From Buxus sempervirens (taxonomy: Eukaryota > Streptophyta > Magnoliopsida > Buxales > Buxaceae), in NCBI GenBank assembly GCA_947561395.2, contig OX387185.1:25611866-25675865 (forward strand): a stretch of 64,000 bases of DNA, given 5' to 3'. The first letter of the stretch is position 1; each line of letters opens with the position of its first letter. The notes under the pieces are model-generated. The model was given only the letters and a program-made list of their open reading frames with translations. It did no database searches and was not told the origin of the DNA. Position numbers and translations under genes: made by a program. Shown in pieces: positions 36,350 to 50,661 of this stretch.

Positions 36350-37862
36350 TTATATATATAAAACGGATAGCTCCCTAGGAAAGCGTGCCTAATATATACT
36401 TTTTTCCCCGAAAATAACTTATCTTATATATTTATTGGGTAATTTTGTCTTTTTCATTTTCACTTTCCAAACTTTTTATTTCTTATCCCTCAGTGTACTA
36501 AAATTGTTTTTTCCATACATATCGTATTTTACGTGTAATCCTCTAGTGAAAATAAATTGAGCCCTATTCTGATTTTCTTGGAAAACGATATTCAAGATTT
36601 TTTATGATACCTCATTTTACAGAAGATTTGACTTATTTTCAGAATGACAAACACGTGCGAATGTAATTCTACTTTAGATTAAATATAAGGGAAAATTTCA
36701 AATACGACCATCTTTTGAAAAGTAAATACAAAAAAAAAAGTTGAAAAGTCTTTCTTACCGAATCATGCAACTTTTCAAAACTATTTACCAAGTGGTCCGA
36801 AAACACTATAGCATATTTCGAAGACCCCATTTTGCCCTTCCCTCTTCGTTTGATTGAAACCCAGGTTCTTTGAAGCGTTGAGCGAGTAGCGAAGGTGGGA
36901 ACCCCATCTTGACGGCGAAGCTTTCTCCGGCTGAATGAAGCCCATCTCGAAACCCCATCTCGAGTGGAACCTCGAAACCGCGAAGCATGTTCGGTTGAAG
37001 GAAGCAATATACAGTCAAATCTCGAAACCCCATGTCCATGGCCCTGGTTTAGCTTGCGTTTTTTGGGGAAGGAAAGGGCCATAGAGGGTTTTGACGAAAC
37101 TCATCAGTGGAACGTTTGCATTGGTAGGGGTTTTGGACGAATCTCCTCAAGATATGAACCTATTGTGGCTAATCATTTTTGGGTATGTTTATCAATGATT
37201 TTCCCTAATTGGTTTTCCTCAAAACTATTCATTGGAATCGCCTGAAGCTCATCGCTTTATTGATCAATGTGTTCGACTAGAAGGCGATTAATCGAACAAT
37301 GAACACATTGTTCATCCAATAAATCGAGTAGAAGTCGATTAATGGGTTAATGAACTTATTGTTCAATGTTATTTGGTGTGTTTTTCGTAATGCTGTGTTT
37401 AGTATAAAGATGTTTGTGGGTAGCATGCTGACTCTTAAGACTCTTAATGGGTAAGAGAGATGATGTCGAAGTTTTAAAAAAAATTAAATACATTTGGTTA
37501 GAATTTATGAGTTAGAAGGCATAACAAGGCCACTTTAGTTGACAAAAGCCTAGAAATTTGAAATATTAAACTATATGTCATTGAAGAGAAATATAATTAT
37601 AGGGTTATTTAGGCTTTATCTAACAATGAAATGGTCAAGTTGGTCATTGTAAAATAAGATTGTAATAGTTCCATTAATGGGTTAATTAACCTATTGTTCA
37701 ATGTTATTTGGTGTGTTTTTCATAATTATGAAATATTTATAAAAAGTTTCAGTGCTTTGAATGGTTAACTCGACACAGCTATTTTATCTATTATTAATGC
37801 GATGGTGCTTTATTCTGAAAATTGAGGAAAACAAAATTTTGAAATTGGTGAATGAAATGTAG
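36350..37862. other. Left flank of the palindrome-rich transposon region, no gene assigned
   Basis: 36680-37080 is a less AT-rich stretch with repeated CTCGAAACC-type words (36940-37035) and short open frames on both strands; none has a recognised domain. From 37260 onward it contains CGATTAATCG (37285-37294) and related ATTAATCG/GATTAATGG words, the motif that marks the region up to 47.1 kb. It may hold the left terminus and 5' exons of the Ulp1-bearing element, but I could not identify a terminal inverted repeat. Confidence 0.4.
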
Positions 37863-39876
37863 GTAAGCCTCAAGGAAGATGGAGTTGTCCAACACACATG
37901 GCAAGTGGAGGAAATGACAGAAGCACGAATGGATTGCCTGGCAATCTATCTTAGGTGGGAGAAAGCACAAAGTTGTGAGGTGGTTAATTAGTATTCTATA
38001 TTCCCACTTGAATCTAATTTTAACACTTGATTATTGATACAGATATTACAAGAACAAATGGACCGGATGGTAGCTGCTGCTCAGGAGATGCAACGTCATT
38101 GCACGGAATTGAAGTTGTACCTCCAGAGACGTGGAGACACACCAACCCATGGTGAACAGCCGGATTCAGCCCATGATTGGTGTTCATCCCATGAGTTGAG
38201 ATGATCACCATCACCGGTTGAAGCCGTTGCTGATGAGCAAGGGTCACCAGTGCAAGTTGCTGATGAGATCGCGTCACCAGAACCGAAGGTTGTGTCTCCA
38301 AGTAAATTCAAGTGAATGATTAAGAAACCCAAAAATTTGTGTTCTCCGTTCGTTGTCCGACACAAATTCCCTTCGTTGAAGCCTGATGAAAAGCGGGTTG
38401 TTGAATATGTAAATGAATTGCATCCAACAAAGTAAGTAATTCTTTATATATATTGTTTCTGAGAGAACATGAAGTTAATGTGTGGAGATGCTTATATTTG
38501 TGTGCCAGATCGACGGAAAATACAATTAGTTTTCCCTCGATGTAGTGTTTCAATTGTGACATGAATTTCTTATTATTGTGTAGCTTGGTTGTTGTGGATT
38601 ATATTAGAATACATGTTACAGTGGAATAGATGCATTGTTTGGCAGATGGATGTTGGGTCGGCAGCATGGTATGTTAGTTTTATCTCGTTGTATAGCTAGT
38701 TAATTCCACAATCATATTAACGGTTATATCTATTATGTATTATGTAATATAGGTAATAGCAGCATATGCTATTTGCCTTATCAACCGACAAGGTTTATAT
38801 TCATCAGGAGTCACAAAGCATTATTGTTCTCCCGTTGTCACTGTAAGCATATTTGACTATTCTAGCTTGCATTAAATTTGTGTAATAAGGTATGTATATG
38901 CGTTTCTAATTCTATTGTAAATCATAGGATATAATCATAAACGGCAAAGATGAGATTGAGATTGATACGATGTATAAGAAGTACTTCTCTCTGAAAACAA
39001 TTGGGTTTCTCCTCTGTGAATGTGAAATGGTAAATTAAGTATGTTTTTTATAGAAATAAAAAACATGTTGTCTTATAATGTTCTTCTCTCAGTAATTTTT
39101 GCAAGTTCTTCCAATCACATGTTTATATTGGGCTTCTCCTCCTAATTAATAGTTAATGTTTTATGTAGATTTTTCTACTAGTATGCCAAAGGAACCATTG
39201 GTTCCTTGTAGTATTGAATGTGAAAGGAAAAAGATTTGAATTGTTGGACTCGGATAGTAGTTCTAGACAAGGTTTGCAAGGGGAGGTAGTCAATAAACTT
39301 GTAGGTTTGCGTTTCCATTGTTAATTTGTAATTTAAATTTGCTAAGCATCCTTTTATGTTATTGTGGAAGTGTTTGACTTAGATGATAGTGCAAGAGATT
39401 TTAATTTGGCAGGCAAAATTTTTTGAGGAGTTATTTGAGACAATTGTCCGCGGAAGACTGTTTGGGATTCCATAATGGGATAGGGAGTAAGCATCAGTGC
39501 CTCATCAAAAGAACGGGTAAGATAATGTATTTGTGGATGATTGGTGTTCTACACTGTTCTAATACGTTTATGTTTTGTTTACCTCAAACTTGTGATGTAG
39601 GTTTGATTGTGGTGTTTTTGTGTTGAAGTTTATGGAGTTTTGGGATGGGCATGTCCTAAACCCTCAATTTGGACAGGCATGCTTTCTTTTTCCAGAACTT
39701 AATTACATCATATGCATTTATTATCTTATAGATGATTGTTTGATGCTAAGTTAATGTCATTACTTGTTATGAAGCAGGATAATATCCCATACTTTAGGAA
39801 GAAGGTGCTGGCAGATTTGGTGTTGGATCCAACTAACAGGTTAAAGGATAACGTGTTGCATCGTCAGATTGGTTGA
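37863..39876 (+). pseudogene. Ulp1-type (C48) cysteine protease of a plant transposon, interrupted by stops
   Basis: Exon-like blocks with splice signals: 37863-37979 (DCLAIYLRWEKAQS), 38043-38431, 38584-38668 (HCLADGCWVGSM), about 38753-38842 (IAAYAICLINRQGLYSSG), about 38930-39027, about 39168-39300 (RNHWFLVVLNVKGKRFELLD), about 39415-39515 and about 39601-39680 (GFDCGVFVLKFMEFWDGH). The last block is about 39780-39876, ending DNVLHRQIG then stop. Ulp1 proteases cleave SUMO-like peptides; plant transposons often carry them. The catalytic His (NHW), Asp (LLDSD), Gln (VPHQKN across a splice) and Cys (DCGVF) are all present. In-frame stops occur in the second block (two TGA) and at 38627-38629 (TAG), so it is a recent pseudogene. 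No N-terminal exons were identified. Confidence 0.75.
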
Positions 39877-41142
39877 TGCTTAGAGAAGACACTTCCATGT
39901 TTGGGGTTGTATAGTGTTTTGTATTCATAGGAACATGAACTACTTTACAATGTTTTGGTGTTATCTTTTTTTGGAGTGATGCGATGTTTGGGGTTATATA
40001 GTTTTTTTTATTCATAGGAATATCAACTACTTTTAATGTTTTGGTTTTTTTCATTTTTGGGAGTGATGTGAACTTCATGTACTTTGAAAGTTTTGGTGTT
40101 TATATATGTCTTGTTGAAAGTGCATTTACAGTTCAAAGCATGCTGTAGCAAGTAATGAAGGCATTGTATTAATCGCTGAAAAAACGTTTAACCTGTTATT
40201 ATTTTGATTAAGCGCAGGGCAAATGTTGATCAATCGATAACAAGTCCGATTAACCGTAGGTTCATCGATTGAAATGCTCCAGATGACCATTAGACGGGTA
40301 TCACAAATTTTCGATTAATCGAATAATATTGTGATCAATCGTAATTAAATTGATTAATTGGTCACTCATAAACCCCAGAAAAAAGGTCACTCAGTATTTC
40401 GTATCGACAATTTCGCGATTCATTTGTTTGACTTTGAATCGATTAATCATAATTGCGATCAATCATAATTAATGTTCAGATTAATCGAATAATATTACGG
40501 TCAATTCAATTAATCGGTAGTTAATCCTGCATAAACCCCAGGAAAAAGGTCATTCTGTATTTCGAATCGGCAATTTTGCGATTCATCTGCTTGACTGTGA
40601 TTAATCGCTAATCATTTCGATTAATCGTGAATATGTACATGCAGTGGCCAAATTGGATAATCTTCGTTAATCGATTAGTCCAGGGTTAATCCTGCATGGT
40701 GAAGAGACTGAAGGACGCACTCTGTTTCTTAAATCGATAATTTACCGATGGATCAATATTTCAATGATCAATCGAGATTAGTTGCCGATGAATCGAATTT
40801 GTACTTTTGAGTCGCGATCCTTAATCATTCAAATTCCGATTCATGTTCCGATAAATCGATGTATATTCCGATCCATCGATATCTTAATCGTAAACATTTC
40901 AAATGGACAAATGTCCAACTAAAAATAAAGACACCAACATAAACAAAAGATCCATTTGATAGCGCACAAATATTCCCATTTAAACATACCACATTATATT
41001 GCTTATATGTGGGAACATAAAAAAAAGTCATAAAGTTATCAAAGTTAAACAAGTCAAGTTCATAAAGTTAAAAAAGTCAAGTTATGAATTAAACAAGTCA
41101 AGATAACCAAAAAAACATCTCCCACATCTTCACTGACATGAA
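39877..41142. repeat. Spacer between convergent transposon genes, rich in CGATTAATCG-type palindromes
   Basis: No gene seen. From 40170 to 40880 the words ATTAATCG, CGATTAAT and ATCGAT recur every few tens of bases, with exact CGATTAATCG at 40312-40321 and 40618-40627. Two stretches (about 40375-40450 and 40535-40610) are a diverged direct repeat built on AAACCCCAG(A/G)AAAAAGGTCA, followed by TATTTCG and a GCGATTCAT word. Confidence 0.7.
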
Positions 41143-42468
41143 CTACACAGCCTCCTCTGCTGCTGCACCTGCACCAGCACCAACACCTGCATCATCATCT
41201 GCATCGGACTCTGGCAAAGGTGGTAGCGATGGCTCCTGTTGACTTTGGCAGGTATAAATGTGGCTCACCACCCGCAACACCCGTTTCACTAGTCGCTTCA
41301 ACCCTCCAAGCTCCTGTTTGACCTCCTTCTTGAAAACTGCGAATTTGTTAGCTTGTGGTTGTGAAGTCGACACTTCTCCATGCAGATGACCAGGGCCTCG
41401 ACGCCTGCCGCGGTGTGCACGTTGCGGATCTGGTATGGATGATGTAGAAGGCATGGATGATGTCGATGGTAGCTGGGGCCCCTTTGGTGCTGCACCTGCC
41501 TCATGCTCCTGCTGAGAGCTTGATGATCTCCCGGTGTCCGTACGCTGATGAGGCAACGGATCTAAATACATGAGTTGGATGTTGGCCCTAGAGAGAGGGA
41601 TTGAACGAACAGTAGATTCAACCGGACCTTGGAGACCATGTTGTTTGGCAAGTTGGGTCATCAGATAAGCGAAAGGAAGAGATCTAGGATTGGATGTTGC
41701 TTTACTTTTACTGGTAGAGAGGATAAACTGACAAATGTGCTTGCAAATCAACATTGGCAGACACATTCGAATGCCCTGAACAACCCGATATAGGAGCATC
41801 ACCATGGTAGGAGTCATGTCATACTTATTACCACGCCTCGGGTACACATTAAATGTGAAGATGTGGTGGAGAATCCTATACTTTGGCATCATACTACCAG
41901 CAGTAAGGGCGGCTCTGTGCCACTCGGCGTCATTCCCACAGAGGGAACGCATTGCCTCCGCAAGGTCCTACTGGAGGGGGGGATCAAATGTGCGCACTTC
42001 ATTACGCGGGATGTGCATCAATTCACTGATGCGGTCAGGGGTGACAAGGACAGATTTATCATTTATATCAACTATAAATGCAGGATCTGGTTCATGGGGA
42101 GCAGTTGTAACACATGCACTCTCATAGAGACGACACGACCAACCTGTTTGCATCACCACCCCAGTCCAAAATACCCTCCCATCCAATTTTCTTAAGAAGT
42201 GGTTCCAAACCATATTTCGAAATTTGGTCTTTGAGCATGGCTTTCTCAATGACCAATGACTTTTGGATGCGTTCCTCACGCCCCCAAGGGCAGCGGATGG
42301 TGTGTGTTCTGGAGACAACGAAGGCGAACTCGTAGCCCAGGCTACAGGCTGCTCAGTATCGTCTGGGTCATAGTCTGACCCAGACGAAGGGAGATCAGGA
42401 GGGGGAGGAGATGGGGTAGGCGTCCTTGCCTTCTTAGCCTTACGACCTAAGGTTTTTCGTTTGGGCAT
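41143..42468 (-). pseudogene. Putative plant transposon protein (Transposase_32-type), one in-frame TAG
   Basis: ATG at 42468 opens MPKRKTLGRKAKKARTPT, a basic nuclear-localisation-like start. An acidic/proline linker follows, then a domain with FWTGVVMQTGWS, DKSVLVTPDRISELMHIP, and after the stop AEWHRAALTAGSMMP, HIFTFNVYPRRG and MLLYRVVQGIRMCLP. This pattern matches the domain annotated as putative plant transposon protein (Transposase_32), as I remember it. The C-terminal third is low complexity (SSTSSMPSTSS, GAGAGAAAEEAV) with a basic stretch. A single TAG at 41968-41970 interrupts an otherwise open 441-codon frame; CAG to TAG is the simplest origin. The gene is convergent with the Ulp1 pseudogene 1.3 kb away, and both lie in the same palindrome-marked region. 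Confidence 0.72.
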
Positions 42469-43057
42469 GTTGGCTTTAAAGCAAAGACGTCAAGGCACAG
42501 ACGAGAACAACAATGGAAGACACGAGTCCATTACAGACAAAATCATCCAAGCATTCAACTACGTGCAACACAAATGAGAGAGGCGCACGAAAGAAGATCA
42601 AAACCCCAAAAAACAAACGAAACAAACAACAAACAATGTACACGAATCGTTAGTTCATTGGAAATGAAATGGAGCAAAGAAGTTGTAAAATCTTAGCACG
42701 TCTTAAGAGAAGAAGAACTTCCACGATTGACGCTATCTCCCAAGAAGAAGTCGACGCAAAAAACCCTAGGGACGGTGGAGAGGATGAGAAATGAGGAATG
42801 ACAAATGAGAAGATGGTGAGACTGGTACGCGCATCGAAAATATTTCAGAGAGTTAATCACAAGGGTCACGTCAGTTGGAAGATGGGATCCCCTGGAAGAT
42901 ATGCGCACGAAACCAAGTGTCGCTTGGTTTCGCCACTTTCGATTAATCGACAAAATCCCTTGATTCATCAGTTGTTTAAGTGACAAAATGATAATTGTAC
43001 GGTTAATCAACTATCTTATGATCAACCTCAAAATAAACGATTAATCGATAAGTTGCC
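42469..43057. other. 5' flank of the Transposase_32-type gene, no further gene
   Basis: The stretch contains two exact CGATTAATCG palindromes (42940-42949 and 43038-43047) within 110 bp of each other, just before the insertion point of the reversed solo LTR. Promoter elements for the minus-strand gene would lie here; none is distinctive. Confidence 0.45.
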
Positions 43058-44869
43058 TGTGAGACACGGGATAAAAATCAATTCGTTGACTTCCTCAATC
43101 ATCACACGGGATTGGTTAAAAACACAGAGTCGCCACCATTCTGTTTTGGTGTGAATGAACACCAAAATATTAAATAAGCTCAAAAAGGCAATTTTAGGGT
43201 AAAAATAACCCTCTAAAAAAAACAACCAGAGATGGGTAAGGGGATTAGGTTATGAACAGGGGAAGGTGTTAGGCACCCCTATTCATCCACACAAGGTGGT
43301 TGCCAGGCATTGTTCATGTTAAAATAAAGGAGGCTTGCTACAAAAATCATAAAAATCACAAAAGACAAAAATGTATGGTTTTTTCATACGAATAGCCTGA
43401 TTGATCCAGAACTTTCAAATATGATCATACCATTCCTAGGGTTTCATGATCAAAATAAAATTGAGCTAAAATCAAATAAAATCAATTTAAAGTGAAATCT
43501 TCAAAAATCTGGTTTCAAGTTAAATTCTAGAAATCTAGAAAAAATATGATTTTTATAAAATATTTCAGAATTGAACTTGAACAGTCTAAGATATAGATAT
43601 AGCCCAAATTTCACATTAAATCAAGAAATCAAAACCAAAAATACCCACGTTGATGAAGAATATCAAAAGGGGAGAACTTTGACTGTAGGGTCTACTCTCA
43701 ATAATGAAAAAGCGATTCAAAAACCACATCATGAAACCCTAGAGGTTACTTTCAGGCTTCTGAATCCAGATCTATCATATTGATCATGATAGATCTAGGA
43801 TCTTAGCCTAATATCACAAAAATCACGAAAACAGTGCTGTAGGTGCAAAAGTGGTGAAAATCCAAATTTTAGCAAAAAGTGGGGATCTCATGTTATAAAT
43901 ATCATGGATTCATATGCTTCATTCAGATTCAACATAAAAACAATTAAAACATGATCAGGATATCCAAAGCAGCCACATCTCACAGATTAGAGCACATGGG
44001 GGTTTACCCTACGGATCCACCTGTTCTATTTTCCCCTAGCTCTCTCTTCACGTTTTACGGCTAGAGAGGATTCTTGAGGTACTTGGAGATAGGTTTGGTT
44101 ATACAAACACAATCAAAGGCTTTATTCTATAAAAAGAGAAAATAGATATGGGGTTCTATTCTAGGGATCCACCTGTTCCCCTTTCCCCTAACTCTCTCTT
44201 CACGTTTTACGGCTAAAGAGACTCTTGAGGTACTTAGAGAAAAGTTTAGGAATACAGAATAAAAGATGGCCTTATTCTACAGCAATAGAGAAGATCCTAT
44301 TACTTCTAGAATTGAAGACAGAAAATAAAAGGGAAAAGGGACTTACCTGGATTGAGCAGGCAGAGCAGCAGGGATTCCTCTCTTCTCTTGGAGCTCCTTG
44401 AACTTCAAATTTTCGTGGCCTTTTGCTTGAGGAAAGGCCCTCTATTTAGAGGCAAACACAGGAGTATGGCTGGTCTAGAAGGATATACCAGGATCTCCCC
44501 AGATTGGGTTAAAAATAAGGATAATGCCAATCCATTGTCAAATAGGATAAATAAGAGATTTCGAAGGGATAAATGAGAGAATTCGAATCTCTCAGAGAGA
44601 TATTTGGGTGCAGATAAGGCTCCAAAATCGAGAAAGGATAAATTCGCACAAAAACCCCCGTGCCCGTATATATATTACGGGCGCGCCCTACCCGTATTAT
44701 TAATACGGGCACGCCGTGCCCGTATATCAACTGCGGGCTTGATCAGACTGTAAACAAAATACGGGCATGACCAGTTTGGCCAGATTTTATACTTTTTTGA
44801 CCTGTTTCAAATCCCAATTAATATTTTCAATTATTTTCTCATTTTGTAGTGCAATTTGGGGTGTCTACA
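43058..44869 (-). mobile_element. Solo LTR of Tat/Ogre type, reversed (5-bp TSD TTGCC)
   Basis: The 1812-bp segment starts TGTGAGACACGGGAT and ends TTGGGGTGTCTACA, with TTGCC at 43053-43057 and 44870-44874. Read on the minus strand it begins TGTAGACACCCCAAATTGCA and has GGTGGCGACTCTGTG near its 3' end, features I associate with Tat-lineage LTRs. GGTGGCGACTCC also precedes the end of the Ogre 5' LTR at about 50618. There are no coding domains, hence a solo LTR. It contains a diverged direct repeat of about 145 bp (about 44015-44100 and 44160-44245, sharing CTCTCTTCACGTTTTACGGC) and a cluster of GCCCGTAT/ATACGGGC inverted words at 44658-44740. Confidence 0.87.
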
Positions 44870-45150
44870 TTGCCGATCATTGAATTTCAAACTGCCCCAC
44901 GTAGTTAATCGTCATTGTTACGATTAATCAATATAGGATTGATCAAGTTCATAGGTCCTTCTCTCTTCTCCGATTTATCGAAAATCTTTGCGATCAATCG
45001 TATCGGAAATGTATCCCACGATGATGTAATTATATCCTTCTTTGATTAATCATAGGATACCATCCCCTTCTTCAGGTTGTTCCCACGAACCTCTATAAGT
45101 ATCCTTCGATTGCTTAAAGAGTATTCTACGAAGAAATATTTGTATCCTTG
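44870..45150. repeat. Palindrome-rich transposon sequence between solo LTR and tandem arrays
   Basis: Continuation of the sequence interrupted at 43057, with GTTAATCG, CGATTAATCA and GATCAATCG words. GTATCC words begin near 45010, foreshadowing the 200-bp array. Confidence 0.6.
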
Positions 45151-46140
45151 ATGCTAATAAGATATCCCCCAATTACGGCCCGGATATAAGTGTAGTAATT
45201 GTGGGATACCATCTTATGCTTCGTGAAATGCTAACGATAATAAATAAGTATCCCTTGAAATATGTAATTGTATCCCACGAATAAAAAATGTATCCACCGA
45301 ATAATGAAATTGTATCCTAGAAAGATATTAATCAAAATTTATTCAATCGATGAATCGAAAGTGTCTCCCCAAGTACGCGTCGGATATAAGTGTTGTAATC
45401 GTGGGATACCATCTTACTCTTCGTGAATTGCCAACAATAAAAAATAAGTATCCCCTGAAATATGTAATTGTATCCCACGAATAAAAAATGTATCCATCGA
45501 ATAATGAAATTGTATCCTAGAAAGGCATTAATCGAAATTTATTCAATCGATGAATCGAAAGTGTCTCCCCAAGTATGCGTTGGATATAAGTGTTGTAATC
45601 GTGGGATACCATCTTACTCTTCGTGAATTGCCAACGATAAAAAATAAGTATCCCCTGAAATATGTAATTGTATCCCACGAATAAAAAATGTATCCACCGA
45701 ATAATGAAATTGTATCCCAGAAAGGCATTAATTGAAATTTATTCAATCGATGAATTGAAAGTGTCTCCCCAAGTACGCGTCGGATATAAGTGTTGTAATT
45801 GTGGGATACCATCTTACTCTTCGTGAATTACCAACGATAAAAAATAAGTATCCCCTGAAATATGTAATTGTATCCCACGAATAAAAAATATATCCACCGA
45901 ATAATGAAATTGTATCCCAGAATGGCATTAATCGAAATTTATTCCGTCGATGAATCGAAAGTTTCTCCCCAAGTACGCATCGGATATAAGTGTTGTAATC
46001 GTGGGATACCATCTTACTCTTCATGAATTGCCAACGATAAAAAATAAGTATCCCATGAAATATGTAATTGTATCCCACGAATAAAAAAGGTATCCACCGA
46101 CTAATGAAATTGTATCCCAAGAATATAAAACGTATCCTTC
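45150..46140 (+). repeat. Tandem array, 200-bp period, about five copies
   Basis: The anchor word GTGTCTCCCC (GTTTCTCCCC in the last copy) falls at 45361, 45561, 45761 and 45961, an exact 200-bp step. A diverged first copy lies near 45160. Each unit contains GGATATAAGTGTTGTAAT, GTGGGATACCATCTTACTCT and several short sub-repeats around GTATCC(C)ACGAATA. Minus-strand open frames in the array (such as 45812-45543) are products of the repetition and not genes. Confidence 0.93.
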
Positions 46141-46199
46141 GATTTCTAAAATTGTATCCCACGAACGGTTAATCGCTTTTTAAATCTTCAATGAAGAAT

Positions 46200-47130
46200 T
46201 CGATTCAAATAAAATTCGTCGATTAATTGGAGTTGTCCACCACAAAAGCCAATGCTGGGTACCAATCAATGATTACCGACTAATCGTAAGTCATATCCGA
46301 CTAACCATTATATTTAGATTCATCGATAATTGGCGATTCAAATTACAGACTGTCGTTTTCTGAGGCAAAATTGCAGGATTAATATTTGATTAATCGAAAC
46401 TTGCCGATGAAAGATTGGGCTATTAGCTATCCATGATAACCGATTAATCGTAACAGATGACCGACTAACCATTAATGTTTGATGCATCGGCGAAGTGCCG
46501 ACTCAAGTTACAGAGTGTCCATTTTCTAAGATAATTTGCAGGATTAAGGATCGATAAATCAATTACTACCAACGAAGGATAGGGCGAATAGCAACTGATG
46601 ATAATTGATTAATTGTAACGAATCACCGACTAACCAAGAATTCTTGATTAATCGATGAAGAGCCGATTCAAATTACTGAGTGTCATTTTTGTAAGACAAA
46701 TTTCAGGACTAAGACTTGATTAATTGAGAATTGCCGATGCACAACTGGGCGCATAGCAACCGATGGTAACCGATTAATCGTAATGATTGACCGACTAATC
46801 ATGAAGTTTTGATTAATCGACGAAGAGCCGATTCAAATTACAGAGTGTCGTTTTTGTAAGACAAATTTCAGGAGTAAGGCCCGATTCATCGAGAATTGCC
46901 GATGCACAACTGGGCGCATAGCAACCGATGGTAACCGATTAATCGTAACGAATGACCGACTAATCATGAATTTTTGATTAATCGGAGACGTTCCGATTCA
47001 AATTCCAGCGTGTCTTTTCCTGAGACTAATTTCAGGATGAACACCCGATTAATCGAGAATTGCCAATGCACAACTGGGCGCATAGCAACCGATGGTAACC
47101 GATTAATCGTTTATTACTAACGATTAATCA
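46200..47130 (+). repeat. Tandem array, 165-bp period, five copies plus ends
   Basis: The word CGATTCAAATTAC or its close variants falls at 46334, 46499, 46664, 46829 and 46994, an exact 165-bp step. Units share ACCGATTAATCGTAA, GACCGACTAA, GAGTGTC, ATTTCAGGA and TTGCCGATG. Exact CGATTAATCG occurs at 46441, 46771, 46936, 47046 and 47100. The array starts within about 70 bp of the end of the unrelated 200-bp array. Confidence 0.93.
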
Positions 47131-47512
47131 TTGATTTGACGATGCATCTAGATTTTGTCGATTAGATGGACGGTTGGTTTTTTTGCTGTGGTGCACCACA
47201 TCGTGCATTGCATAAGATGACTTTGGGTTAATCATAACAAAATGTTAGAGTAACAAGTATTTTGATGAGCAATTTATTAATTAACGATCGCAAATGTTTA
47301 GTCCCTTTGTCATAGGTCTATGAATTTTGAGTTCATTGTCGGATTGATTCAGGTATTTGAGTGTTAGAATGAGAAAAAAATAATATCAATTTCTTAATTG
47401 TTTTGAATGTGCAACCTGGCAAAAAACATTGTTAACCATGCATACATCACTTACTTTTGCATGTTAGCCTCTCCAATTATCAATTACAGACTCTCACCAA
47501 TGTAATAACATC

Positions 47513-47828
47513 TCAGTCACCTATATCTTTATCAGCTTTACTATTGCGGCTTCCATATGCATCTCTTACAGCAGTGATGGTTGTCCGATATGCATCATTC
47601 ACTATTTGTAACTCTTTTTGCACGTGCACCAGCCGACCAGCCACATCCTGAAAATAGGAGAATGATAGAGTTGGTTACGTTAGAGGGTCAATAATAGGAC
47701 TGTAATGAATGGAAATTGCCGATGAACGGTTAGACGAGGTATGAACTATATCTTACAGGGTCAATAATAGGAAATTCAGAGTTCAGATCTTCAGGGGTAA
47801 CTGGAACATCCTCCTTTAACCGTTCCGG
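47513..47828 (-). pseudogene. Two C-terminal exons of an unidentified gene, cut by the Ogre LTR
   Basis: On the minus strand an open stretch from 47828 (PERLKEDVPVTPEDLNS, then FPIIDP) ends at a GTAAGA donor (47757/47756). The intron ends in TTTTCAG, and the second exon 47647-47513 reads DVAGRLVHVQKELQIVNDAY onward to a TGA. The junction is phase 0. The 5' part is missing because the Ogre LTR begins at 47829. I do not recognise the family. Its strand and position suggest it is another gene of the same transposon as the Transposase_32-type protein, or an upstream host gene; neither is proven. Confidence 0.55.
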
Positions 47829-50661
47829 TGTGGACTACACTATAAGCACCTCATTTTTGCGCTCCCAAAAAGCCAGAAATGTAAAAACCCGGCCGAAAAG
47901 TCAAACCCTGAGGGGTGCAAAGTTGACCTTTTAATCAGATAAAATTTGGCCACCTTGATCTATCCCATTGGATAAAGAATCTCAATACGGTTCCAGCGCA
48001 ACTGAGTTTGCAGGAATCGGGGTCCGGATGAAGGTTCTGCGGGCAGTAAAACTTAAGGAAAAGCCAAGAGTTGACTTTTCCTCGATTTCCATGCAAAATA
48101 CCTTACTCTAGCCCAATGGATAGAGAATCCCGACACGGTTCCAGCGCAACTGGGTTTGCAGGAATCGGAGTCCGGATGAAGGTTCTAAGGGCAGTTAACT
48201 TAAGGGAAGGCCAAAAGTTGACTTTTCCTCGGAATCCGTGCCAAGTGTTTAGCCCCATGTCATTAAGTAGAGGGCTCCGATACGAGTCTAACACAATTGA
48301 GTTTACTCAAATCGGAGTTCGGATGAAGGAGATATGATCTGTCGAAGTTTCCGAGCAGCAAAGCCGGAAATTGCACACGTGGCGCAGGAACTGCCCACGT
48401 GGCAGCCAACGCAGCAAAATATCTTAGGGACTAAATCTTAAATATAAAAAATTCGTACGGGCGATCCGTAGATATCAAAAAGGGTCAAATCGGTCGAATC
48501 GGTTGAATCGGTCAAGTCGAAGGGCAAATCCGTAAATTTTTGATTTGTATCGACCGGATACACTAGCTCCGCTTCATGGCCGGACTTGAAGGCCGGATAC
48601 ATAAAGATATTCTCCTCTCCATTCTTGTTGAAACAAGAGGAACTGAAGTGCTGTGGTGGCCAAAGGAGGAGCTCCAGCTCACTTTCCTGCTGCCAGGAGG
48701 TGTCAACACATCCCCAAAAGGTTTTAAAACCTAAGGTAAGGCTCCTCATCATCTGTTATTGAACATTTATTAAAATAGGAATTTTCTGAAATATTTACCA
48801 AACTTGCCTTCACCTCTTTGCATGGGCTCATCTTTATGTCATCCTATGCATGCATTTACTATTGTTTTCGCGTCATGAGGTCTTGCACCGCGTAGGCTTT
48901 GTATGTTAAGCATTAGATTCTTTAAATTGGTGTTTTTTACCATTTTTTTATTGCTGATTTGAGGAGGGGGTATGCCCCCTCATGCTTGAAGGTCTCTTGT
49001 ACCCCTACGTAACCCTCCTCCTCTTTCCCTTCAATGGAGGTTTCGTGGTAAGTAACAAGTCCATGCGTAAAGCTTGCTGGATTGTTCTTTTGCTTTTCTT
49101 TCTCGTTAAATGTTACATATGTAGTGCCATGTGTTATAGAGATCTGCAGCATGTTTACTATGTTTTGGTTGAGAGACCGTGGCCCGCCTTGCATGTCCAC
49201 TGATCATGTGGGAGTAGAAGGACCAAACAGGGACACCGAGGTCCCTGTCCAGCCACAAAGAGCTTCCCATGATCGGGAGGATGTAGCACCTCTAGCCCCC
49301 TTCCCATTGCCTTTGCCGAAAAGTCCAAGGAGGAGAAGCCAAAGGTGGCTTCTCCCAAACCTGTACGTATGTGGGCCCATCCGAGGGCCCACCTGACTCC
49401 TAAAACCTTCCTGGGAGCCCCTGGAATCCATCCCGAAAGGCCAAAGCCCAAAAAAGGGCCATTCCAGGGTGATCCGGCAACTCAGGCCGGATCACCTGAG
49501 GCCTTAGCATATCCGGCCACCAAGGCCAGATAACCTAGAGCCTCTGTGTATCCGGCCACTCTGGCCGGATCACCTGTGGACCTTGTGTATTCGGCTTGAG
49601 TTACCGGATACACACAGAAGCATGCTTTTTTGTATATTCTGTTGTATTGCCAAATTCTATGGTGATTTGCATCAAAATCATTGAACCAGCAGGGTTTCCG
49701 CTCCACCTGGAAACCCAACTTGGGACTTGGACCAACCGGTCCAACTTGGCACATTAGTGGGCCTTCCAACGGGGCCCACCAAGCCCAATGAACCTGAAGG
49801 CATGCAATTAAATAACCTAAGCTAAAAGAACCATGTGAACCGGGCGGGCCAAACCCAATGCGGCCCACCCGCGCCTTGTAATGTGAATGAATGCATAAAT
49901 TGTGTGGTTTGGCCGAGACCTTGGGCTAGGGCCTTTCGGGCCCGCCAAAGCCCGCCAACCGAACCAAGTTAGGGTGCAAGCCCCAAACTCCAAGGAGCTG
50001 GGCTTTCAAAGCCCAAAGCCTGGATCACGGGCCCCAAGCCCAATGACCAGCCCACTTTGGCAAATTAAAGAAGATAAATGTAAAATTCCTTGGCCACCAT
50101 GTGGGCCCACCTAAGGGGCCCACAAGCCAATCCGGCCCACCACTTGCACGAAAACCACTTAAGCTCCAAACTTGAACCTTAATAAAAACCAACTCATTAT
50201 CCAAGGCCCACAGGGCCTCCCAGGGCTAGACAGAGGCCCACCAAGGGCACACGGGCTTACCCAAGCCCACCAAGGGCACCGTGGGCCTTCCAATGGGGCC
50301 CACCCAATCAGACTCAGATAAACTAAGTCAAGCAAAGATAAAATCAACTAAAGGGACCCACACCACTCAGGTGGTCCCACCAAGACCTAACAAAAATACC
50401 TGCTGGATTAGGAATCGGGTGAGAACCAAAAGTGAGAAAGCTGACTCAAATCAGGGAACCCATGGGACCCGTCATCCGACGGGGTGGATTGGGGTGTCTA
50501 CGGACTTCCCCAGCCCGCAACCGAGAACCAAACCTTAGAATCTCAAGCTGCAGACCCAAAGCCCTAAATAGACAAGATTAGGCACCCAGGTGTCCGCCTG
50601 CACCCCATCAGGCGGTGGCGACTCCGAATTTACCCCGTGCCGCGTTTCCCACGCGCACACA
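47829..50661 (+). mobile_element. Ogre 5' LTR, about 2.8 kb
   Basis: It starts TGTGGACTACACTATAAG and ends CGCGCACACA three bases before the PBS. The 3' LTR is not in the window, so the start (47829 or 47831) and the target duplication cannot be confirmed. The first 500 bp hold three copies of a 148-bp repeat. 48480-48620 and 49460-49620 hold GGCCGGATAC/GTATCCGGCC words, and 49860-50400 is very GC-rich with repeated GGGCCC(A) words. Confidence 0.8.
47950..48340 (+). repeat. 148-bp direct repeats in the Ogre LTR
   Basis: The phrase GGTTCCAGCGCAACTG falls at 47989 and 48137 (148 bp apart). A third, diverged copy is anchored by CGATACGAGTCTAAC at 48279, 148 bp after CGACACGGTTCCAGC at 48131. 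All units contain a TCGG(A/G)GT(C/T)CGGATGAAGG phrase. Confidence 0.85.

Follow-up and report, generated by a model that had tools for sequence, protein, structure and literature searches.

A 64-kb stretch of the Buxus sempervirens genome (hereafter the window; C6:25611866-25675865 in an assembly of 676.5 Mb and 247 contigs) contains most of one decayed Mutator-like element (MULE) of the type bounded by terminal inverted repeats (TIRs). This element carries a Ulp1-type cysteine protease gene and a Transposase_32 gene (PF20167), and the 10-bp palindrome CGATTAATCG is a trademark of its family that is kept out of its genes. We propose that CGATTAATCG, which is dense in the non-coding DNA and has multiplied through tandem repetition, acts in cis for the element itself, and that a nuclear protein encoded by the element would bind it. 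The Transposase_32 protein, as a dimer, is the likeliest candidate. By analogy with VANC in the VANDAL elements of Arabidopsis, such binding would relieve the silencing of this family (family A) alone. More speculatively, Ulp1 might remove SUMO from silencing proteins wherever the motif is bound. Taken as a whole, we give this reading roughly even odds (about 0.5).

One Mutator-like element carries both genes

The initial annotation had tentatively assigned the region to a single DNA transposon family that carries both genes and is marked by palindromes, and one complete relative, bounded by TIRs and a target-site duplication (TSD), holds all of these. This relative (C1:8817298-8833075, 15,778 bp; loci L006/L007), fetched among the palindrome clusters of contig C1, is collinear with positions 36689-47844 of the window, minus a solo long terminal repeat (LTR) present in the window copy, with about 91-93% identity up to 43057 and about 80-88% in the arrays beyond. 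Its left end recurs inverted 15.8 kb away, both ends begin with GGGAAAATTT, and the same nine bases, TTTAAAATT, flank it on both sides. The outer arms are 97.7% identical in an alignment of 176 columns, some 165 of which belong to the element proper, and a further, inner inverted stretch aligns over 188 columns at 88%. From left to right the relative encodes Ulp1 (+), Transposase_32 (-), an open reading frame (ORF) resembling PMD (-) and a mudrA-type transposase (-). Its Ulp1 gene, spliced by eye, matches Peptidase_C48 (expectation value, E, 1.3e-15) and the solved structure of SENP2 (1tgz; 6.3e-10), its Transposase_32 gene is an intact 445-residue ORF (E 8.1e-19), and its transposase matches MULE (9.9e-14), DBD_Tnp_Mut (1.1e-14) and SWIM (1.4e-4) profiles; the PMD-like ORF, L007:3880-4794(-), reaches E 0.018 for PMD, below the curated cut-off. 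Both transposon-type genes that had been claimed for the window are real, the one by the spliced match just given and the other by a profile match of its own (Table 1).

On the evidence of this relative the element is Mutator-like: it has TIRs, a MULE/SWIM transposase and a 9-bp TSD, which lies within the 8-11 bp (9 being usual) given for Mutator in the accessible part of a published account (PMC6446971), and the Peptidase_C48 domain inside it is that of the Ulp1-carrying MULEs. Two unrelated transposons lying side by side can be rejected, because in the relative both genes lie between a single pair of ends. Elements of the CACTA (En/Spm) superfamily have CACTA ends and a 3-bp TSD; this assignment is rejected by the GGGAAAATTT ends and the 9-bp TSD.

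Shared termini and target duplications, which had been suggested as a check, were sought across loci with the 176-bp end as query (40 matches, 40 of 296 candidates scored). Among these 40 there are nine inverted TIR pairs, 14,988-18,500 bp apart, and the 9-bp duplication is exact in eight of them and has two mismatches in the remaining one. Deleted derivatives retain the palindrome. One (L008) has a whole and a truncated terminal repeat and matches none of the genes; allowing up to one mismatch, it holds 12 sites. Another (L005, C1:8570001-8580000) is a fold-back with 3.26-kb arms that are 98.5% identical and palindrome arrays near its centre; it holds 23 sites by the same criterion, and of the family's genes it retains no more than short pieces of the PMD-like and transposase genes. 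Palindromes occur at 13 places on C1 up to 8.83 Mb, of which 11 were read: four match the large element (L003, L005, L008 and L006/L007), and four (L010, L012, L013 and L014) form a mutually related set of small or fold-back elements. Three of the latter are alike among themselves and outline a small fold-back family of about 0.75 kb (L010:6516-7340, L012:6061-6799, L013:5085-5831), with five to eight palindrome-like sites each and ends that, by eye, resemble those of the large element.

A palindrome kept out of the element's genes

All ten exact copies of CGATTAATCG that had been reported for the window were confirmed, and they are the only ones in its 64 kb; every one falls within 37285-47109. 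Fewer than one had been expected by chance, consistent with 100 dinucleotide shuffles of the window that yielded none (expected 0). The one-mismatch relatives, which had been described as many, come to 24, with 23 of them inside 36689-47844. Exact and one-mismatch sites together, 33 in the window element, form blocks at 37.3 kb, 40.2-40.9 kb, 42.9-43.05 kb and 44.9-47.1 kb, with none in the Ulp1 and Transposase_32 spans and none in the solo LTR (43058-44869); an origin of the palindrome as part of that LTR is ruled out by its lack of sites.

The same avoidance of genes is seen in the complete relative, where none of 38 sites (at most one mismatch) lies in the genes, although these, as we delimit them, fill 6407 of 15778 bp. 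Even placement would give this with a chance of about 2.5e-9, a figure that overstates the case because sites within arrays are not independent. In an unprompted ranking of the 10-bp palindromes in the relative's non-coding DNA, CGATTAATCG came first, with 18 copies vs 2 for the next. Across the genome, Transposase_32 gave at least 96 matches (95 of 1255 candidates scored), some of them pieces of one gene: 60 belong to family A (identity of 71% or more in the matched part), 35 to a second family, B (44-45%), and one is a short fragment (52%). Of the best 30 of these 96 matches, all in family A and including the complete relative and the window copy, every locus has exact palindromes within about 1.5 kb (1-9 each, 181 in total), and their matched coding stretches contain neither exact nor one-mismatch sites. 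CGATTAATCG occurs 2484 times genome-wide vs 238 for its reversed control, and of the first 50 sites listed, on C1 up to 8.83 Mb, 41 have a neighbouring site within 1 kb. The genome-wide count, likewise proposed as a check, rejects an even spread in favour of clustering.

The clustered palindromes had been taken for subterminal transposase-binding sites, and on that explanation the mudrA-type transposase would use them for excision and integration. Two of the relative's 18 exact sites do sit in the inner inverted stretch common to both ends, a third lies near it—all three within 0.9 kb of an end—and sites persist in the deleted derivatives. However, the other 15 occupy the interior, in tandem arrays and between genes at distances of 3.7-8.4 kb from the left end, and the outer 165-bp repeats have no exact site in the relative and none in the window copy. 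The subterminal placement is thus unsupported, and we judge binding by the transposase to be decidedly unlikely as the role of the motif.

Family B, VANDAL elements and the candidate reader

Family B provides a natural comparison. Its Transposase_32 genes are numerous and look young, with at least 98 matches (97 of 1393 candidates scored), many of them 97-99% identical with intact frames (e.g., L049-L051; C3:5766194-5767486). The non-coding motifs of family B were read at three loci that are 95-96% alike over aligned stretches. CGATTAATCG is absent from all three (0/0/0), and in its stead stand GGTACC (24/20/17) and AACGCGCG (11/8/6); the 30 family A loci, conversely, have zero or one GGTACC and no AACGCGCG. 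As with the palindrome in family A, none of the 24 GGTACC sites at L049 falls in the Transposase_32 gene or the transposase end. A 14-mer, AACGTCCGCGCGTT, occurs 942 times in the genome vs once for its reversed control; of its 100 listed sites, which cover C1 up to 54.2 Mb, 70 are no more than 12 kb from a listed B gene. Territory of this kind makes up 0.42% of that stretch, and neither of the two family A genes on it has a site that close. An array of ACATGTGTACA-type palindromic units adjoins the family B motifs at L049:5082-5360 and is possibly a third motif of this family.

This comparison also bears on whether a host protein, homeodomain-like or a silencing factor, reads the motif as a promoter or enhancer of the element's genes. 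Sites do stand upstream of Transposase_32 in family A, and one or two copies of the related GATTAATCG, perhaps an ancestral trace, stand upstream of the gene in B loci. Yet the B loci otherwise have entirely different dense motifs, and many family A sites lie in arrays distant from gene starts; we consider a host-protein site unlikely.

Our reading in terms of an element-encoded protein follows what has been described for VANC, as far as the accessible portions of the cited papers go. VANC is encoded by the element, binds a short motif and removes methylation from its own family (PMC5735166, PMC10398659). The motif is dense in intronic, intergenic and terminal non-coding DNA and in tandem repeats, is rare at such density elsewhere, and differs between related VANDAL families (PMC5735166). 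VANDAL21/Hiun and VANDAL6 therein resemble the Buxus element, being MULEs with extra genes and with a short, family-specific motif in non-coding DNA and tandem repeats: the Buxus palindrome, too, is dense in non-coding DNA, absent from coding DNA and included in tandem repeats, and families A and B have different motifs, those of B at three near-identical loci. In the same sources the VANDAL elements have degenerate, short or no TIRs, whereas the Buxus family has TIRs of about 165 bp.

We favour Transposase_32 as the candidate reader because its gene is traceable in both families, because its N-terminus is basic by eye, like a nuclear signal, and because a long C-terminal helix in the predicted fold could pair two subunits over a palindrome. 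A broader claim would be that TIR-bearing MULEs use Transposase_32 proteins as anti-silencing factors that the transposon itself encodes and that recognize specific sequences, a second class beside VANC and different from it in sequence, with clade-specific targets that are self-palindromic or compound and with protein and target co-diverging; we offer this tentatively, as somewhat improbable.

Several observations weigh against the proposal, and the first concern the protein. VANC contains DUF1985/DUF287, whereas the Buxus element has Transposase_32 in its place; a search of Transposase_32 and of the PMD-like ORF, carried to E 10 with HMMER filters that drop most weak matches, found neither domain. 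The VANC21 motif is directional, whereas CGATTAATCG is palindromic. The reader could instead be the PMD-like protein or the transposase. A single-sequence fold prediction of the window Transposase_32 is poor, with a mean predicted local distance difference test score (pLDDT) of 43, its best-predicted part being one C-terminal helix (residues 374-411). Within family A the ratio of non-synonymous to synonymous substitution (dN/dS) of Transposase_32 is about 0.7-0.8, which is weak evidence of constraint and may reflect decay of the copies or fast evolution. Aside from these points, a search of the protein database with the intact Transposase_32 (7991 candidates scored) yielded nothing related at E <= 0.001, and searches of PDB and NCBIfam yielded nothing at E <= 1.

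Other points on this side concern the families and their distribution. Three of the 11 places read on C1 (L001, L002 and L004, with one exact site each) have no similarity to the element and match none of the small elements either. Of the 30 Transposase_32 loci in family A, 13 have no nearby TIR among the 40 TIR matches scored out of 296 candidates; the window locus is counted with these because its right TIR lies 76 kb beyond the gene and its left TIR falls outside those 40. In family B, 30 of the 100 listed AACGTCCGCGCGTT sites lie away from listed B genes, and of nine B loci on the same stretch of C1, seven have the 14-mer within 12 kb and two do not. The motif comparison rests on two families, with the B element read in part, and the three B copies are not independent, being 95-96% alike. 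Nor do the two families seem to share a transposase: the part of the B transposase that was read has a SWIM finger and shows no convincing similarity to the transposase pieces of family A (best E 0.007); it resembles FAR1/Jittery-type MULEs. Because the transposases seem to differ as well, the difference in motifs between A and B is not assignable to Transposase_32 alone.

Conservation of the motif adds a further point of this kind. Motif sites are conserved at 0.950 vs 0.934 for neighbouring bases (p 0.08, without correction for relatedness), so that any extra conservation appears slight. Change of CpG to TG/CA is 0.077 at the motif vs 0.101 (p 0.046, likewise uncorrected). In favour of the proposal, divergence is lower at motif than at other non-coding bases, 0.040 vs 0.056 for A/T and 0.072 vs 0.098 for CpG. 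That the excess is slight speaks for a functionless motif, spread passively with tandem arrays and the copying of the family, and half of the window's exact sites do lie in the 165-bp array (none in the period-200 array). Against such passive spread stand the single sites outside arrays (37285, 42940, 43038), the absence of all 38 sites of the relative from genes, and the recurrence of the same pattern with other motifs in family B, and we think it improbable.

The maize En/Spm protein TnpA offers another parallel to an element protein that reads its own repeats, as it binds repeated CG-containing sites and also counters methylation. En/Spm, however, belongs to the CACTA superfamily, with subterminal sites and a 3-bp TSD, whereas the Buxus element is a MULE with mostly internal sites.

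Elements with parts of the same gene content have been described, again judging by the accessible portions of the sources. Ulp1-carrying MULEs are known as Kaonashi/KI-MULE in Arabidopsis and from melon, rice and grapevine (PMC2528002, PMC13317346), and in melon they include MULEs with TIRs (PMC2528002). KI-MULE resembles the Buxus relative in pairing a mudrA-type transposase with a Ulp1 C48 gene on the opposite strand; those portions mention neither a Transposase_32 gene nor a palindrome array (PMC2528002, PMC13317346). Transposase_32 (PF20167) is also reported from sunflower, where an Athila retrotransposon has it as an additional ORF (PMC11728184). There, too, the domain accompanies a mobile element of a plant, but that element is an LTR retrotransposon, and the accessible text reports no motif system for it. 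The initial suggestion of an undescribed family therefore stands in part: the kind of MULE and Ulp1-MULEs as such were known (PMC2528002), whereas in the open-licence literature we found no description of a Ulp1-MULE with Transposase_32, of its palindrome system or of its second-family counterpart.

If our proposal holds, element-specific anti-silencing through short dispersed motifs would not be peculiar to VANC in TIR-poor VANDALs but would have arisen with another protein family as well, and a domain known as a "putative plant transposon protein" would gain a testable role. It would also account for the roughly tenfold excess of the palindrome over its reversed control in the genome, and would offer a short, palindromic target to which the loss of DNA methylation could be directed.

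The window copy

The region had been delimited as starting at 37250, but the element begins at 36689, and the window copy is interrupted at 47844, before the mudrA-type transposase gene, which consequently lies outside it (Table 1). Both tandem arrays that had been noted are real.

Table 1. Features of the window copy (window coordinates; a dot marks features without strand).
Feature	Position	Strand	Evidence or remark
Left 9-bp TSD, TAAATATAA	36680..36688	.	8/9 bases match TAAATGTAA after the probable distant right TIR at C6:25730525
Left TIR, starts GGGAAAATTT	36689..36853	+	homology of relative begins exactly at 36689
Exact palindrome CGATTAATCG, with one-mismatch partner at 37336	37285..37294	.	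stretch found inverted near right end of complete relative
Ulp1-type cysteine protease gene, several exons, decayed by in-frame stops	38041..39880	+	exons visible in translation
Intergenic block: exact palindromes at 40312 and 40618, seven one-mismatch sites	40247..40858	.	
Transposase_32 gene, single ORF with one in-frame TAG (about 41968)	41143..42489	-	PF20167, E 4.3e-12
Exact palindromes at 42940 and 43038, upstream of Transposase_32 gene	42940..43047	.	
Nested solo LTR, later insertion, TSD TTGCC, palindrome-free	43058..44869	.	absent from complete relative
Tandem array, period 200, ~4.8 copies; no exact palindrome, few one-mismatch sites	45167..46119	.	
Tandem array, period 165, ~5 copies; exact palindromes at 46441, 46771, 46936, 47046 and 47100	46269..47110	.	
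3' part of PMD-like gene, ending at 47844 against next repeat	47502..47844	-	homology to relative stops at 47844; putative exons, read by eye

The H, D and C motifs of the window Ulp1 gene are still legible by eye, and a Peptidase_C48 match was looked for in its own frames, with none found; the window Transposase_32 is 80% identical to the intact 445-residue copy. Positions 40471-40627 are an inverted relative of the 165-bp array, and units related to the period-200 array occur in the derivatives L005 and L008.

The partner end of the window copy is probably at C6:25730525, 82 kb from 36689, where we place it because eight of the nine flanking bases agree (TAAATATAA, TAAATGTAA). If this is correct, the right half with the transposase would lie beyond the window, behind nested insertions; none of it was found in the next 30 kb past the window. 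The repeat that abuts the element from 47845 onward, together with its 148-bp duplicate (47952-48231), is probably part of a nested insertion that splits the window copy; it resembles L010:3063-3389 (70%). The solo LTR, for its part, reads as a clean later insertion into the element, with TTGCC on both sides in the window and a single TTGCC in the complete relative. Inside it, at 44658-44727, are three 28-bp units with CCCGTAT...ATACGGG-like inverted repeats.

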